From Aequorivita lipolytica (lineage in GTDB: Bacteria; Bacteroidota; Bacteroidia; Flavobacteriales; Flavobacteriaceae), in assembly GCF_007997135.1 (NCBI RefSeq), contig NZ_VORU01000003.1, positions 62,001 to 126,000 of the forward strand: a stretch of 64,000 bases of DNA, read 5' to 3'. The position numbers were made by a program, and so were the translations under genes. Shown here piece by piece: positions 55,309 to 61,102 of this stretch (positions are counted from its first letter, which is position 1; each line of letters opens with the position of its first letter). The notes beneath the pieces are model-generated. The model worked only from the letters and a program-made list of their open reading frames with translations. It had not been told where the DNA came from and searched no databases.

Positions 55309-56673
55309 ATGGCAAAAGCAACAAACAATCTAAAAAATAGATTCGGTCGAAGTTTAACAGACAACGCATTAACACGCTATGTTACTTTCTCTGCTCTCTA
55401 TATAGCCCAAGGAATACCGGAAGGCATTACCTATTTTGCCATTCCAGCTTGGTTGGCGATGAATGGCAAATCGGCATTGGAAATAGCTGCATTTGTTGGT
55501 GTTATCGGTATTCCCTGGAGTTTTAAAATTATAATTGCGCCTTTAATGGACCGTTTCACATTTTTGGCAATGGGCCGAAAGCGGCCGTGGGTAATTTTTG
55601 GCCAATTAGGTTTAATAGTCAGCTTTTTGAACATTGGCTTAGTTCCAGACCCGTTAAATAATCTTTCTGCATTAATGGTCGCGGGGTTTTTCATCAGTTT
55701 TTTTGGCGCATTTCAAGATGTGGCAACAGATGGAATGGCGGTAGATGTTATTCCGCCAAATGAACAGGCCAGAGCCAATGGCCTTATGTGGGGAACCAAA
55801 ACAATAGGTATTTCAGCATCTTTGGTCATAGGCACTTGGCTTATTAATACCGTTGGTTTTTCAATCGCGGTTTCCTCACTGTCCATTGCGGTGGCAGCAA
55901 TCATGTTTTTTCCTATTTATTTTAGGGAACGGCCCGGCGAAAAATCGATGCCGTGGACTCTCGGCGCAGCTTCACCAGATTCCAAACAAACGCAATTGCA
56001 AAGCTGGAAGCATATTTTTAAAAGTCTTCTTAAAGTAGTAAGCCTAAAATCCAGTATCGTTTTTGGGGTTGGCGTTTTTATGGTGGGTATTATGTTTGGG
56101 CTTGTTGACACACTTTTGCCCATATTTACCATTCAGGAATTGGGCTGGACAAACACCTCCTTTTCCCAAGTTTTCTCAGTTACTTCAGTAATCGGTGGAA
56201 TATTGGGAATGGTTATAGGCGGCTACTTAGTGGATTATTTTGGAAAAATAAAAATGCTGACCCTATATCTTGGCATCTTGGCACTCCTGATAACAGTCTT
56301 TGCTTTTATTCCAAATTTATGGGGCAGTAACATCATTATATACAGTTTTATACTGAGCTACTATACTTTTTACACTTTTTTGTGCATTGCAGTATTTGCA
56401 TCTGCCATGCACCTGTGCTGGAAAACGGTGGCCGCAACACAATTTACGCTTTATATGGCATTGAGCAATATGGGGCGGGCCTCGGGCTCGGCCTTATTGG
56501 GGGTTCTGAAAACAAATTTCACTTGGGAATGGGTCTTTATTTTTATTGCCATCATGCCAGTGGTTATGGCAATCCTTATACAATTTATCAATTTTACAAA
56601 ACACAGGGACCAGGTAGATAGCTTCGTTGTTTTAAACCAAACCTTGGTGGCGCCGCCTGTGATTAAGGATTAA
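55309..56673 (+). CDS. MFS transporter
   Basis: The 454-residue transporter has 12 hydrophobic segments. It has PAT/AmpG-like features: TFSALYIAQGIPEGITYFAIPAWL, APLMDRFTFLAMGRKRPWVIFGQ and QDVATDGMAVDVIP. It could carry muropeptides or another small molecule; the substrate is not predictable. It has its own spacer of 189 bp upstream. Confidence 0.85.
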   Translation: MAKATNNLKNRFGRSLTDNALTRYVTFSALYIAQGIPEGITYFAIPAWLAMNGKSALEIAAFVGVIGIPWSFKIIIAPLMDRFTFLAMGRKRPWVIFGQLGLIVSFLNIGLVPDPLNNLSALMVAGFFISFFGAFQDVATDGMAVDVIPPNEQARANGLMWGTKTIGISASLVIGTWLINTVGFSIAVSSLSIAVAAIMFFPIYFRERPGEKSMPWTLGAASPDSKQTQLQSWKHIFKSLLKVVSLKSSIVFGVGVFMVGIMFGLVDTLLPIFTIQELGWTNTSFSQVFSVTSVIGGILGMVIGGYLVDYFGKIKMLTLYLGILALLITVFAFIPNLWGSNIIIYSFILSYYTFYTFLCIAVFASAMHLCWKTVAATQFTLYMALSNMGRASGSALLGVLKTNFTWEWVFIFIAIMPVVMAILIQFINFTKHRDQVDSFVVLNQTLVAPPVIKD

Positions 56674-56682
56674 CTTCAAACG

Positions 56683-56802
56683 ATGATTAAACTCTCTAGA
56701 AATAGCAGCAGAAACCCACTTAATAAACGCAAGGCCAAAAACCGTCCCGTTTGGGACACGAATATCGGTAAAAAAATAATCGAACACAATCTCGTCCTTT
56801 AG
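56683..56802 (+). pseudogene. DUF6090 5' remnant next to the REP element
   Basis: ATGATTAAACTCTCTAGAAA encodes MIKLSRNSSRNPLN, close to the DUF6090 start (MIKLFRNxRKNLL). The DUF6090 body is absent, and the reading frame continues into the REP-bearing element at 56744 until a TAG at 56800-56802. It is probably a disrupted copy. Confidence 0.6.
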
Positions 56803-56889
56803 GTACGAAATATCATATTACGTACCTAAAGGCACGTTTTTAAAAACGATAACGCATTAATGCCACCGATATAGAGTCCCTAACGGGAC
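56744..56889. mobile_element. transposase-less REP element (146-bp imperfect palindrome)
   Basis: Outer hairpins GTCCCGTTTGGGAC (56744-56757) and GTCCCTAACGGGAC (56876-56889) enclose GTCCTTTAGGTAC (56794-56806) and GTACCTAAAGGCAC (56822-56835), with 36 and 40 bp between hairpins of each end. This is the same end structure as the IS200-type element at 59148-59767 but with only 15 bp between the two ends instead of a gene, as in a MITE. Confidence 0.8.
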
Positions 56890-56907
56890 AGAATCAAAAT
56901 CCAATAA

Positions 56908-57666
56908 ATGATTAAACTCTTCCGAAATACCCGCAAAAACCTTCTCGCAGAGGGCAAAACCACAAAATACCTAAAATACGCCATTGGTGAAATTATCCTC
57001 GTGGTTATTGGTATTTTGATTGCCTTGAGCATTAATAACTGGAACCAAAACAGAAAAGAAGCAATTGAGGAAAAAGCGATATTAAAAACATTATTACAAA
57101 ATCTTAACGCAGCAAAAAAGCAGTCTGAAGCACTTATTTCTGAAGAAGAAACCCTAAAAATAAGCCTTATAAGACTTCTTGGAATTGATGCGAACCCTTC
57201 TAAAAAAAATGATACAATAATTCCTGATTCAATTTTTAAAACTACAGTTTGGGACCTGCAAAGCGACCAACCAACTTTTAACGCCTATAACAATTTAAAA
57301 AACACTAATAAGCTTAGTTTAATAAAAAGCAAAAAAATAAATGAAAAGTTTACAGACTTAGAATTTTACCTAAACAGGCTCAACGACGTACTTGAGGACA
57401 GGTTGAGCGTACATCAAATTCGTGTAGATAATATATTGGAAAACGATATTAATTTCATCCCCTTAGTAAAATCGAGCGTACCAACTATTAATATTGAATA
57501 CGAACCACAAAATAATTATAATCAATTATTAAAAGTTAAAAGAATTAGAAACCTTCTGGGTATGAAATTAGACTTTACCCAAGATGCTATTGATCATCGC
57601 ATAAATCTCGATAAAGAAATAAAGGATTTAATAACGCTAATTGAATTAGAATTAAATAAAAAATAG
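56908..57666 (+). CDS. DUF6090 family membrane protein
   Basis: The 252-residue protein has the family start MIKLFRNTRKNLLAEGKTTKYLKYAIGEIILVVIGILIALSINNWN, with one TM near 28-45 (AIGEIILVVIGILIALSI). A long C-terminal helical region follows (ILKTLLQNLNAAKKQSEALISEEETLKISLIRLLG), likely in the periplasm. DUF6090 is of unknown function and occurs in many copies in Flavobacteriaceae (recalled). It lies immediately after the MITE-like element. Confidence 0.85.
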   Translation: MIKLFRNTRKNLLAEGKTTKYLKYAIGEIILVVIGILIALSINNWNQNRKEAIEEKAILKTLLQNLNAAKKQSEALISEEETLKISLIRLLGIDANPSKKNDTIIPDSIFKTTVWDLQSDQPTFNAYNNLKNTNKLSLIKSKKINEKFTDLEFYLNRLNDVLEDRLSVHQIRVDNILENDINFIPLVKSSVPTINIEYEPQNNYNQLLKVKRIRNLLGMKLDFTQDAIDHRINLDKEIKDLITLIELELNKK

Positions 57667-57685
57667 CCGAAATACAACATAAATT

Positions 57686-58201
57686 ATGAGAACAAAACTT
57701 TTAGTATTTAGTTTGATGGGACTTTTAATGAGTTCAGCATTATACAGTCAAACCCTAGATGAAAAATATACAGAAGATGTAAAAACCATAGCTACAATTA
57801 TAGATGCCTATTACGCTGTAATTTCAGGAGCAAGCGAAGATCCTTGGCAATTTGAAAGAGACAACTATTTACATTCAGATACTGCAGTTATAACACGGTT
57901 AGACGACAACGGAAAAGTAGATTCACATACTTTGGAAGCGGAATACATTCCTTTGTTATTGCTTCCTAAAGAAGATTTTTACGAAAAAGAACTCAAACGA
58001 AAAGTGAGTCAATTTGGCAATATGGCGCAAGTTTGGAGTGCCTATGAAGTAAGAACCAAGCCAGAAATCGCTTCAAATATAAGAGGATTAAATAGCATTC
58101 AACTTCATTTTGAAAACGGAAGGTGGTTTATAGATAGTTGGACTACGCAAATGGAAACGGAAACCAATACTTTAGTTACAGATTTTTTGAAAGCGGAGTA
58201 A
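57686..58201 (+). CDS. exported NTF2/SnoaL-like protein
   Basis: The 171-residue protein has a signal peptide (LVFSLMGLLMSSALYSQ). Its domain (DAYYAVISGASEDPWQFERDNYLHSDTAVITRLDDNG...MAQVWSAYEVRTKPEIASNIRGLNSIQLHFENGRWFIDSWTTQ) matches the NTF2-like fold. The function is unknown. It lies between two DUF6090 genes. Confidence 0.75.
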   Translation: MRTKLLVFSLMGLLMSSALYSQTLDEKYTEDVKTIATIIDAYYAVISGASEDPWQFERDNYLHSDTAVITRLDDNGKVDSHTLEAEYIPLLLLPKEDFYEKELKRKVSQFGNMAQVWSAYEVRTKPEIASNIRGLNSIQLHFENGRWFIDSWTTQMETETNTLVTDFLKAE

Positions 58202-58264
58202 AACTTTTAATAGATAATTGTTGTGACCAACTAAAAATATAGGGAGAAAAAATAGAAATCAGTT

Positions 58265-59008
58265 ATGATAAAGCTTTTCAGAAACATCCGCCAAAACCTT
58301 CTAAATGACGAGCCTTCCATAGCTTTAGCGAAGGGAGGAGGCAAAACCACAAAATACTTTAAATACGCCATCGGCGAAATCATCCTAGTGGTCATTGGTA
58401 TTTTGATTGCGTTGAGCATCAATAATTGGAATGAAAACAGAAAAGTACAAAAAGAACAATCGGTATTCCTGACCAATATTGTGCAAGACCTCACGGAAGA
58501 TTTGACGCAAATCAATAAAATTATCATACATCAGTCGAACAAGCTGGAAAAAGTAAATGCCTTAACCATTGAATTGTCGAAAACAAATGATAAAGATTTC
58601 AAAACTATAGAGACCCTATTTTCCCAACTTCAAACTACTGAAAATGACACCTTTTTTGCAAATATGGGAACCTACTCCACCTCAAGCTCTGAAAAAGTCA
58701 TTGGAAATTTAAATCCTGAATCGCTCAAAATTGCAATTACAAATCTATACGAACGATTTTATTACCGATTGACCTATAATGGCGATTTATATGATGCCGA
58801 CGACCAAAAAGTAGCTTTTGAAAGAGGGAAATTTTATAACAAAATCACTAAAAAACTAAAAGATAAATATGTAATTGAGAACAGCGAATTTTCAAATCTC
58901 ATCAGCATTATTTCCTATGACAATTCATTCTATTTGGAATTATGCCACAAAACAAAAGAGGAAATCGAAAGAGTTACGTCTCTCATCAATCAGCGTTTAA
59001 AAAATTAA
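58265..59008 (+). CDS. DUF6090 family membrane protein with in-frame insertion
   Basis: The 247-residue protein is a paralog of 56908. Instead of LLAE-GKTTKY it reads LLNDEPSIALAKGGGKTTKY, a 10-codon in-frame insertion (58310-58339) built around a CCTTC...GAAGG palindrome. TM and C-terminal helical region follow as in the paralog (FKYAIGEIILVVIGILIALSINNWNE). The extra codons keep the frame open. Confidence 0.85.
   Translation: MIKLFRNIRQNLLNDEPSIALAKGGGKTTKYFKYAIGEIILVVIGILIALSINNWNENRKVQKEQSVFLTNIVQDLTEDLTQINKIIIHQSNKLEKVNALTIELSKTNDKDFKTIETLFSQLQTTENDTFFANMGTYSTSSSEKVIGNLNPESLKIAITNLYERFYYRLTYNGDLYDADDQKVAFERGKFYNKITKKLKDKYVIENSEFSNLISIISYDNSFYLELCHKTKEEIERVTSLINQRLKN
58310..58339 (+). 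repeat. in-frame palindromic insert in DUF6090
   Basis: CCTTC (58313-58317) and GAAGG (58330-58334) pair, with GCT/AGC extension. It encodes EPSIALAKGG, which is absent from paralogs at 56908 and 59012. Confidence 0.6.
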
Positions 59009-59011
59009 CCA

Positions 59012-59185
59012 ATGATAAAACTCTTCAGAAACATCCGCAAAAACCTTCTCGCAGAAGGCAAAACATCAAGATACCTAAAATACGCCATTGGCGAAATTAT
59101 CCTCGTGGTCATTGGGATTTTAGAACGGAAAATTATTCATTGCACACGTCCCGTTAGGGACTTTATATTGGTAGAAGAGAAATAA
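59012..59185 (+). pseudogene. DUF6090 copy truncated by IS200-type element
   Basis: ATGATAAAACTCTTCAGAAA encodes MIKLFRNIRKNLLAEGKTSRYLKYAIGEIILVVIGIL, matching DUF6090 up to the middle of the TM. It then switches to ERKIIHCTRPVRDFIL, coded by sequence running into the REP left end at 59148, and stops at 59185. The remainder of DUF6090 is not found downstream of the element, so the copy seems destroyed by insertion or recombination. Confidence 0.8.
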
Positions 59186-59767
59186 AGTATCAACCAGCGT
59201 GCCGTTAGGTACGCAATATAAATGCACAATACATGGCAAACACCTATACACAAATCCACATACAAACCGTTTTTGCGGTTCAAAACAGACAGAGCTTAAT
59301 ATTAGGACAATGGAAGGAAGAATTGTACAAATATATAACCGGAATAATTCAAAATTACGACCATAAAGTGCTTCAGATAAACGGAATGCCAGACCACATT
59401 CATATTTTATTCGGAATGCGGCCAACGCAATCTCTTTCAGATTTAATGAAATTTGTGAAACAGGATTCGTCAAAATGGATCAACCAAAAAGGGTTTGTAA
59501 ACAGAAAATTTTCGTGGCAGGCTGGTTATGGTGCATTTTCATATTCGAAATCAGATGTGCAAAATGTGATAAATTATATCAAAAATCAGGAGGCACATCA
59601 TAAAACAAAAACATTTACCGAGGAATATTTGCAATTATTAAAGGATTTCGAAATCGATTTTGATAATCGTTATATATTCCATCCCATTGAATAATATATG
59701 CTGTACCTAAAGGCACAGAAATAATACCGTTAACATATTGCTACCAATATAAAGTCCCTAACGGGAC
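59148..59767 (+). mobile_element. IS200-type element with paired REP hairpin ends
   Basis: Left end: GTCCCGTTAGGGAC (59148-59161), 37 bp, GTGCCGTTAGGTAC (59199-59212). Right end: GTACCTAAAGGCAC (59703-59716), 37 bp, GTCCCTAACGGGAC (59754-59767). The ends are inverted copies of each other and enclose one HUH transposase gene. Each end is a two-hairpin unit, so the element resembles RAYT/REP or TnpA-REP systems. Confidence 0.85.
59233..59694 (+). CDS. tnpA: IS200/IS605-type HUH transposase (TnpA)
   Basis: The 153-residue Y1 transposase has the HUH motif in NGMPDHIHILFGM (His55-x-His57) and a catalytic Tyr candidate Tyr115 in VINYIKNQEAHH. It starts ANTYTQIHIQTVFAVQNRQ, a form common in Bacteroidota. 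Single-strand transposases of this type act on hairpin ends. It is intact (no stop, normal length), so it may be active and could also mobilise the derivative at 56744. Confidence 0.93.
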   Translation: MANTYTQIHIQTVFAVQNRQSLILGQWKEELYKYITGIIQNYDHKVLQINGMPDHIHILFGMRPTQSLSDLMKFVKQDSSKWINQKGFVNRKFSWQAGYGAFSYSKSDVQNVINYIKNQEAHHKTKTFTEEYLQLLKDFEIDFDNRYIFHPIE

Positions 59768-59820
59768 AGATTCAGAATTTTAAATAGAAATGAATTTTAC
59801 AGACAATCAAATTATAAACC

Positions 59821-61014
59821 ATGAAAACTAAACTACTCCTTTTCTTAAGCATCGCAACGCTTCAATTAAGCGCCCAGAACTATCAAAAAATTCACAACAA
59901 AGCCATATTAGTGGATACCCACAACGATTTTCTTATGCAGACAATGGAAAAGAATTTCGTTTTTGATACCAATTTAAAAGGTAAAACCCATAGCGACTTA
60001 AACCGAATGAAAGAAGGCGATGTAGATGTGCAGTTTTTTTCCGTTTTTAGTGACGGCGACCAATCGAATCCGTATGCTTTCGCCAATCGTCAAATAGATA
60101 GTTTGGATGCCGTTATAAAACGAAATCCAAATAAAATTGTGAAAGTTTTCAATTCAAAAGAACTTTTAAAAGTTGTGAAGCAGAAGAAGATTGCTTCATT
60201 AATGGGACTGGAAGGCGGCCATCAATTTGAGAACGATTTGGGCAAACTTGAAGCACTTTACAATCGTGGTGTTCGCTATATAACCTTAACTTGGAACAAC
60301 TCGACTCCTTGGGCAACAAGTGCTTCCGACGAGTCCTCCCCTAACCCCTCCAAAGGAGGGGGACTTAATTCCGAAGGAAAAAAAGGGCTTACTGCTTTTG
60401 GAAAACAAGTAGTTCAAAAAATGAACAGTTTGGGGATGATGGTAGATATTTCGCACGTTGGCGAACAAACGTTTTACGATGTAATCACCACGACTACAAA
60501 ACCCATTATTGCTTCCCATAGTTCTGTTTACACGCTCTGCCCGCACAAACGAAATTTAAAGGATGACCAAATAAAAGCCATCGCAAAAAATGGAGGCGTT
60601 ATTCAAATCAATTTTAATTCAGGGTTTATAGACCCGAGTGTTGATAAAAGAGAATCTGCCTTTCTTGAAAAACACAAAGTGGAAATAGATTCCCTTAAAA
60701 AAAGTGGGGTGCATCCGTTCCTAGCTGAAGCGGCTATGTACCAAAGATATACGGATGAATCAGAAGCGCTTCGAGCTCCTTTTGATTTTGTAATTCAACA
60801 TATAGAATACGTCATCAAATTGGTTGGTGTGGATTATGTGGGAATCGGCTCCGATTTTGATGGCATTTTGTTGCCTCCAAAACAATTGGATGATGTAACG
60901 GATTATCCTTTAATAACAAAAGTTTTGGTTGAAAAAGGCTATAGCGAAAAGGATATCGACAAAATCCTTGGCGGAAATCTGCTTCGGGTTTTGAAGGCGA
61001 ATGAAAATAATTAG
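59821..61014 (+). CDS. M19 (renal-type) membrane dipeptidase
   Basis: The 397-residue protein has a signal peptide (LLLFLSIATLQLSAQ) and M19 motifs: ILVDTHNDFLMQTME (metal ligands), SLMGLEGGHQFENDLGKLEALYNRGVRYITLTWNNST, MMVDISHVGEQTFYDVITTTTKPIIASHSSVYTLCPHKRN and VDYVGIGSDFDGI. It hydrolyses dipeptides. Between TSASDE and GLTAFGKQVV it carries a palindrome-coded stretch (60332-60365), so it may be a repeat insertion. It follows the IS element by 54 bp. Confidence 0.9.
   Translation: MKTKLLLFLSIATLQLSAQNYQKIHNKAILVDTHNDFLMQTMEKNFVFDTNLKGKTHSDLNRMKEGDVDVQFFSVFSDGDQSNPYAFANRQIDSLDAVIKRNPNKIVKVFNSKELLKVVKQKKIASLMGLEGGHQFENDLGKLEALYNRGVRYITLTWNNSTPWATSASDESSPNPSKGGGLNSEGKKGLTAFGKQVVQKMNSLGMMVDISHVGEQTFYDVITTTTKPIIASHSSVYTLCPHKRNLKDDQIKAIAKNGGVIQINFNSGFIDPSVDKRESAFLEKHKVEIDSLKKSGVHPFLAEAAMYQRYTDESEALRAPFDFVIQHIEYVIKLVGVDYVGIGSDFDGILLPPKQLDDVTDYPLITKVLVEKGYSEKDIDKILGGNLLRVLKANENN
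60332..60365 (+). repeat. palindromic insert inside the M19 dipeptidase
   Basis: CCCCTCC-AAA-GGAGGGG (60345-60361) with outer AGTCC/GGACT arms. It encodes SSPNPSKGGG within a variable loop. The G/C-rich composition differs from the surrounding gene. Confidence 0.65.
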
Positions 61015-61102
61015 TAATTGATGGGAACTGAAATGCAACACGAAAGAAACATCCCATCCAACGGAAGCCATTATTCATTGTAAGACTCAAAACCTTTGCG
61101 AC

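Follow-up and report, generated by a model that had tools for sequence, protein, structure and literature searches.

The ends of the insertion sequences IS608, ISDra2 and IS605 are not known to be inverted copies of each other. In the IS200/IS605 family the left and right ends carry their hairpins on the same strand, and IS608 cuts 3′ of TTAC with a following C preferred (a TTAC|C target), according to the sections of PMC5934647 used here. REPtrons join a TnpA_REP (RAYT) gene to REP, BIME or REPIN repeats; the E. coli TnpA_REP cuts REP, not its complement, and requires a stem mismatch (PMC8266576, sections on this enzyme). Subclass 1.2 of the TnpA_Y1 transposases has the signature Y---Q--HH, the motifs DH[IV]H and WQ, a median length of 148 aa, a specific C-terminal domain and Bacteroidota among its hosts, and occurs at 1.7 copies per genome with a mean identity of 36% between copies (Quentin et al. 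2018, Table 1, PMC6006769). The sections of this defining paper on which we draw describe the subclass without REP sequences and generally without IS200-type end structures, and name no substrate for it.

The locus described here lies in a window of 64,000 nucleotides from Aequorivita lipolytica and consists of a Y1 transposase gene, tnpA, between two inverted double-hairpin modules (Table 1). It resembles a REPtron in that a Y1 gene lies between inverted palindromic repeats, which are found elsewhere as inverted units, and its stems are short, as in the group 3 REPs of PMC8266576 (as far as its cited sections describe them). It differs in that the protein scores with the IS200 model and not the REP-associated one, the GT[AG]G at the hairpin foot is absent and a YTAC-CRATAT motif stands about 9 nt before the outer hairpin instead, and the repeat is made of two hairpins with the motif between them. 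The closest solved relatives belong to the IS200/IS605 family (IS608, ISDra2), which is likewise hairpin-based, and the YTAC|C of the motif resembles the IS608 target. Unlike in that family, which has several near-identical copies per genome, the gene is low in copy number; the ends in the window are inverted copies, the repeats occur without the gene, and its neighbours in the window, as far as tested, encode DUF6090 and M19 peptidase proteins rather than TnpB.

The protein agrees with subclass 1.2 in its motifs, length, low copy number and host phylum; it departs from the published account, as given in the sections cited above, in that a hairpin pair is present at one or both ends of 57 of 77 loci (from the best 80 of at least 586). 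The CGTC-tagged REP families (PMC3733652) share the short palindromes and have Bacteroidetes among their phyla, but their stems are 8-9 bp, and that paper reportedly found no transposase gene flanked by CGTC repeats; the present repeats may be distinct from them. In our working classification the system is filed as REPtron-like, with a protein of subclass 1.2, outside class 2 TnpA_REP. In the open-access papers searched we found none that ties REP-like repeats to subclass 1.2, and an earlier notice elsewhere is possible.

Table 1. Coordinates in the window of the tnpA element, its gene-free neighbour and adjoining DNA.
Feature	Position	Strand	Remarks
Whole element: tnpA between two inverted double-hairpin modules	59148..59767		
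Outer hairpin, left end (HPb)	59148..59161	-	GTCCC-GTTA-GGGAC on +
Motif CTACCAATATAAA, left, between outer and inner hairpins	59162..59174	-	CTAC = 59171-59174
Inner hairpin, left end (HPa)	59199..59212	-	GTGCC-GTTA-GGTAC on +; G-T pair, A-C on -
tnpA, 153-aa HUH/Y1 transposase, subclass 1.2 type	59233..59694	+	PDHIH, WQ, YIKNQEAHH
Inner hairpin, right end (HPa)	59703..59716	+	GTACC-TAAA-GGCAC
Motif CTACCAATATAAA, right; candidate cleavage site between hairpins	59741..59753	+	CTAC = 59741-59744
Outer hairpin, right end (HPb)	59754..59767	+	GTCCC-TAAC-GGGAC
DUF6090-type gene 5′ remnant and adjoining DNA, directly left of element	59013..59147	+	by eye
tnpA-less four-hairpin copy, ~2.3 kb from the element	56744..56889	.	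gaps 36 and 40
Four-hairpin copy, outer left	56744..56757		
Four-hairpin copy, inner left	56794..56806		degenerate, 13 nt
Four-hairpin copy, inner right	56822..56835		
Four-hairpin copy, outer right	56876..56889		

The first-pass annotation had described paired hairpins with 37-nt gaps and inverted ends around an intact 153-aa HUH transposase, and the coordinates bear this out, with a 37-nt gap separating the two hairpins of each end. A 27-nt inverted repeat (59148-59174 / 59741-59767), 100% complementary, makes up the outer ends, and the inner ends are complementary at 82% over 22 nt. The right inner hairpin contains an A-C mismatch on the + strand, which is G-T on the other strand, and the left inner hairpin is its mirror image. 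The mismatch is found at the right end of 7/7 close genus tnpA copies (at least 75% identity; G000, three in G016, G019, G011 and G021), where the search pattern itself required that hairpin and yet matched at each of the seven. The proposed strand asymmetry is supported, but the mismatch was seen in the close clade; across the wider set, loop and inter-hairpin motif tell the strands apart. Folding of both strands, as had been suggested, places both hairpins in the 83-nt ends on either strand; the isolated 14-nt inner hairpin folds only as the left, + strand form (-1.0 kcal/mol; the other three 0). Constant spacing had also been proposed, and 13 of the 15 pattern-matched genus modules have a gap of 36-40 nt; it is not exactly constant, the remaining two having 32 and 67. 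By eye, the left ends in G011 and G019 each have a single recognisable hairpin. A permissive Rfam search of 56500-61100 gave one match only, unrelated and under the gathering score. The first-pass view that paired-hairpin ends on so small an element are not a textbook layout is qualified by a precedent, as the left ends of IS608, ISDra2 and IS605 have a second small hairpin (PMC5934647, in the sections cited). To the left of the element, DUF6090-type genes (56908-57666, 58265-59008) form an array over 56683-59147, together with two 5′ remnants recognised by eye (from ~56683 and 59013); each hairpin element adjoins one of the remnants.

The tnpA ORF is intact and matches Pfam Y1_Tnp (E 4.6e-29). 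It scores 73.8 bits with the NCBIfam IS200 model NF033573 (cut-off 55) and 40.2 bits with the REP-associated (REP_Tyr) model NF047646, below its cut-off of 80, which places it outside class 2 TnpA_REP. The motifs PDHIH, SWQAG and YIKNQEAHH fit the DH[IV]H, WQ and Y---Q--HH of subclass 1.2, and the single copy in its own genome fits the low copy number of that subclass. Y115, Q119, H122 and H123 are invariant in 23/23 aligned homologs; F128, E131 and Y147 are conserved after the HH pair, as read from the homolog alignment rather than from the published C-terminal-domain profile of subclass 1.2. With a profile of the 23 homologs, the solved relatives are IS200-type transposases: 2a6m, named ISHp608, and 2xm3/2xma, named "transposase", which we take to be the ISDra2 transposase. 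Genus copies compared in pairs give dN/dS of 0.04-0.09 (9/10 pairs with finite dS; dS >1 in most), and by this measure purifying selection acts on tnpA within the genus.

A phage collection holds four records similar to TnpA, every one below 30% identity, and a plasmid collection holds four, at 54% and 38% (Bernardetia, Persicobacter) and two cyanobacterial ones at 28%. The cyanobacterial plasmid homolog that was viewed adjoins tnpB, and the Bernardetia one has one hairpin within the 1.7 kb viewed. In the G016 genome three tnpA copies with the same similarity score lie side by side within 2.3 kb (C1:113500-121500, L155); a right-type module follows each of them, and the cluster looks like a local amplification. 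A tnpA of G221 (C18, L152) has an in-frame TGA, though modules of its family are scattered through that genome.

The arrangement recurs around related genes. We sampled the best 80 of at least 586 encoding places, mostly from Bacteroidota with few records from other phyla. In these best 80 loci a hairpin pair 46-57 nt apart, with one mismatch allowed, is present at 82 of 157 tnpA ends versus 1 of 458 ends of other genes, and with strict stems and 44-58 nt at 55/157 versus 1/458, the two ends of a locus, and related loci, being non-independent rows in these counts. Both ends could be tested at 77 of these loci, and the pair is on both sides in 23, on one side in 34 and on neither in 20. The 350-nt flanks of the best 80 loci contain a mean of 2.31 strict hairpins versus 0.30 in control windows, and at least two in 103/147 versus 54/1228; in the 200-nt flanks, 85/127 of the spacings between neighbouring hairpins are 45-60 nt, versus 9/42 in controls. 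At the 82 ends the median distance between hairpin centres is 51.5 nt (quartiles 50 and 53, inside the selected 46-57 range). Read outward from the gene, 130 of the 164 loops begin with TA (TAC/TAAC type), 9 are of the opposite, TA-last type and 25 are other; 3-nt loops are commoner in the inner hairpin (48/82) and 4-nt loops in the outer (53/82). Inner-versus-outer stem identity is preserved only weakly from one end of a locus to the other: stems of the same rank match better in 8 of 23 loci, equally in 14 and worse in 1.

Loci bearing the pair include Ignavibacteria and Rhodohalobacter records. For eleven homologs of 48-58% identity the pair, sought over a wider span of 190 nt, is at 11/22 ends, and the strict motif is at 4/22. 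Ten divergent homologs (33-44% identity) have the pair at 1/20 ends and the motif at none of them, and thus fit the published description of subclass 1.2 as without REP.

In the alignment of the 55 strict ends, YTAC-CRATAT (T 0.93, A 0.93) stands 5′ of the outer hairpin; the 5′ side of the inner hairpin is without it and keeps A-N-A-T alone. A looser YTAY-NN-A stands just 5′ of the outer hairpin in 68/82 ends and of the inner in 9/82, with 7 and 10 on the opposite strand. Anchored on YTAC..A.AT and a CC..GG core only, 47 of 155 tnpA ends match, versus 1 of 4614 control windows. Of these 47 ends, 39, 39, 40 and 30 have Watson-Crick pairing at HPb stem pairs 3, 4, 5 and 6, against shuffle means of 25.3, 32.0, 19.5 and 16.8, the observed values being reached in 0, 2, 0 and 0 of 5000 shuffles, a control that kinship among the rows makes optimistic and that covered HPb. 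The HPb stems differ among loci with compensating bases, and pairing so far above that of reshuffled partners indicates that it is kept by selection. By analogy, the motif between HPa and HPb would take the place of the cleavage site in the right-end/left-end junction of an IS200/IS605 circle. The motif differs at a second tnpA of G221 (L209), which suggests specificity.

The modules are also found away from the gene. A search of the host genome, which the first-pass annotation had recommended, returned five exact outer hairpins at three places: the window element, the four-hairpin copy and a cluster on contig C3, in which one right-type module is followed by several left-type hairpins. In the four-hairpin copy the place of YTAC is taken by TTAC at the left end (- strand) and by CCAC at the right. 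A gene flanked by palindromes that are present elsewhere in the genome, as in REPtrons, is thus seen here and in G221, G285 and G016. The dispersed units of G221 have the order inner-outer-outer-inner, the mirror of the arrangement around the gene. Five are complete (L169, L171, L227, L228, L230), with hairpin starts 49-52, 31-34 and 52-53 nt apart and outer stems that differ in sequence yet pair, and a sixth (L229) has three hairpins. G285 has one motif family both beside tnpA and on another contig, and an array in G016 has 15 hairpins, with the motif in one direction at 14. The double-hairpin module is an independent repeat, of which inverted four-hairpin units and direct arrays occur where tnpA is absent. 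The earlier proposal of REP-like ends linked to a Y1 transposase is supported, and is to be amended in that the locus is not simply an element with special ends.

At L169 and L171 the G221 units continue beyond their four hairpins as another outer inverted repeat, which has a CCCTG/CAGGG hairpin. The G016 region C1:2956500-2976490 (L156) has few ORFs of at least 150 aa, ~333-bp repeats at several places and many arrays of a 7-bp unit (TGTCGGT); the two ~333-bp units that were read both contain a left-type double-hairpin module.

We surveyed 296 genomes of the class, of which the subclass 1.2 profile matches 162 (divergent members included); the other 134 are counted as tnpA-negative, an assignment that may be wrong for some, because at most 13 candidates were scored per genome. 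The motif pattern matches 179 times in the tnpA-positive and 22 times in the tnpA-negative genomes, the reversed control 56 and 34 times; as the reversed pattern also matches (90 in total versus 201 forward), some motif matches are due to chance. At least one match is present in 58/162 versus 14/134 genomes (Fisher 3e-7), and at least two in 30/162 versus 2/134 (control 12 and 5). Within the genus, 40 of 45 motif matches fall in G000, G016, G019 and G021 (2, 27, 2 and 9), with 8 in all for the reversed control, and G011 has tnpA and no pattern match. Hairpins without a link to tnpA, which the first-pass annotation had named as the adverse case, are thus seen as gene-free modules in single genomes, and the association with the gene stands across the 296.

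Two genomes depart from this association. G158 has 8 motif matches and no tnpA. G103 has 21 in dispersed units, and the matching motif is absent at all five of its tnpA genes that were viewed (of seven, the two further ones being fragments). Three of four aligned G103 copies (146, 174 and 211 bp) have both ends of a shared terminal inverted repeat beyond the hairpins, and another mover is therefore possible there. In these units (L163-L166) the hairpins are central and the common terminal inverted repeat is ACTGTTTAAA; in the copy L166 similarity starts roughly at the CTAC motif, as though a junction had formed there. An ORF between two of the G103 units presumably encodes an exosortase-type membrane protein.

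Element-free sites in sister strains, which had been suggested as a check, were found at two loci. The site of the window element is without an element in 8/8 sister genomes that have the adjacent M19 peptidase gene, with 17-175 nt between this gene and the next ORF. Several sisters have a DUF6090-like remnant without the element upstream of the peptidase gene, and G004 has, by eye, a possible degenerate remnant at the site. These element-free sister sites did not reveal the precise target of the window insertion. The second locus is downstream of a conserved gene present in 26/28 genus genomes, for which 25 downstream regions were scored or classed (G004 left out). The gap there is 63-69 bp in five genomes; G000, G014 and G008 (the last by eye) have modules without tnpA, G011, G019 and G016 have tnpA with modules, a contig end cuts G021, and 13/25 have other DNA, which is unscored. 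Presence and absence at both loci indicate that modules and gene come and go.

From these comparisons we consider it likely that the locus is a REPtron-like system on the IS200 side of the family, in which one low-copy Y1 transposase gene is accompanied by its own family of dispersed double-hairpin repeats. The module of ~65-70 nt reads, outward from the gene, HPa (loop more often of 3 nt), ~24 nt in the window, YTAC-CRATAT and HPb (loop more often of 4 nt). Comparison among loci and genomes brings out module order, spacing, outward polarity, HPb pairing, gene-free occurrence, genome association and purifying selection. We favour the REPtron-like reading because of the pair counts, the place of the motif, HPb covariation, the association across genomes, the G221 units, the element-free sites and dN/dS, and the IS200-type solved relatives (ISHp608) and the IS608 TTAC|C preference also count for it. 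Counting against it are the 20/77 loci without a pair, the divergent homologs without it, G103 and G158, the reversed-pattern matches and G011.

The probable substrate of TnpA is single-stranded DNA, cut after YTAC in the stretch that separates the hairpins. We propose that a TnpA dimer would bind HPa and HPb on one single strand, the outward-reading one, exposed by replication or transcription, and would cut this strand between them at YTAC|C; both the position of the cut and the choice of strand are guesses. Rejoining of the ends would copy or move modules and give rise to inverted REPIN-like units and direct arrays, with the gene sometimes carried along. The gene would mostly stay put, because the modules are inverted and no single strand has both ends in cleavable orientation. 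The conserved inner mismatch could serve like the stem mismatch of the E. coli REP.

The perfect 27-nt outer inverted repeat and the tnpA-less copy with similar ends ~2.3 kb away might also belong to an insertion sequence of the IS200/IS605 type, mobile as a single unit bounded by the 27-bp inverted ends, from which 56744-56889 would derive by internal deletion, as a MITE does. The M19 peptidase site, empty in all eight sisters, and tnpA elsewhere in G011, G019 and G016 agree with such movement; the presence of tnpA at different loci among genus genomes means that the gene moved, or was lost and gained. We nevertheless regard this as unlikely, since there is one copy in its own genome, the inverted ends differ from the same-strand LE/RE layout of IS200/IS605 (cited sections of PMC5934647), the modules are repeated beyond the ends in arrays and four-hairpin units and persist without tnpA at the orthologous locus in G000, G014 and G008, and the copy number and identity reported for subclass 1.2 (cited sections of PMC6006769) are low.

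It is distinctly improbable that another enzyme mobilises the modules and that the subclass 1.2 gene is a passenger of, or an insertion target in, repeat arrays. The G103 units with terminal repeats of their own and no matching tnpA among those viewed, and the G158 matches without tnpA, would be explained in this way, but fixed module order and polarity around the gene in many families would not, nor would the more numerous motif matches in gene-bearing genomes. We give very little credence to the reading that the hairpins terminate transcription directed into the element, protecting the gene from read-through, and recur for that role. Both outer hairpins and the right inner one do score as terminator-like into the element (4 sites in the region; shuffle mean 0.7), and termination of read-through may be a side function. 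The stems, however, are only ~5 bp, the conserved motif is tied to one hairpin of the pair, the spacing is narrow, and gene-free units and direct arrays occur elsewhere.

Returning to the REPtron-like reading, recurrence around many related Bacteroidota genes suggests a mobile repeat family not previously tied to this enzyme group. A more far-reaching form of it, which we hold tentatively and with more doubt than belief, is that a REP system arose from the IS200/IS605 side, separately from the known RAYTs, in which the module is a ready-made right-end/left-end junction, one dimer holds both hairpins and cuts YTAC|C, and what moves, in a large part of the Bacteroidota, is the repeat rather than the gene. 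If the module is the substrate of subclass 1.2, this enzyme group becomes testable by a simple oligonucleotide assay. In that case transposases would have given rise to REP systems by two routes, the second of them derived from IS200, and the module could account for many of the short palindromic repeats between Bacteroidota genes.
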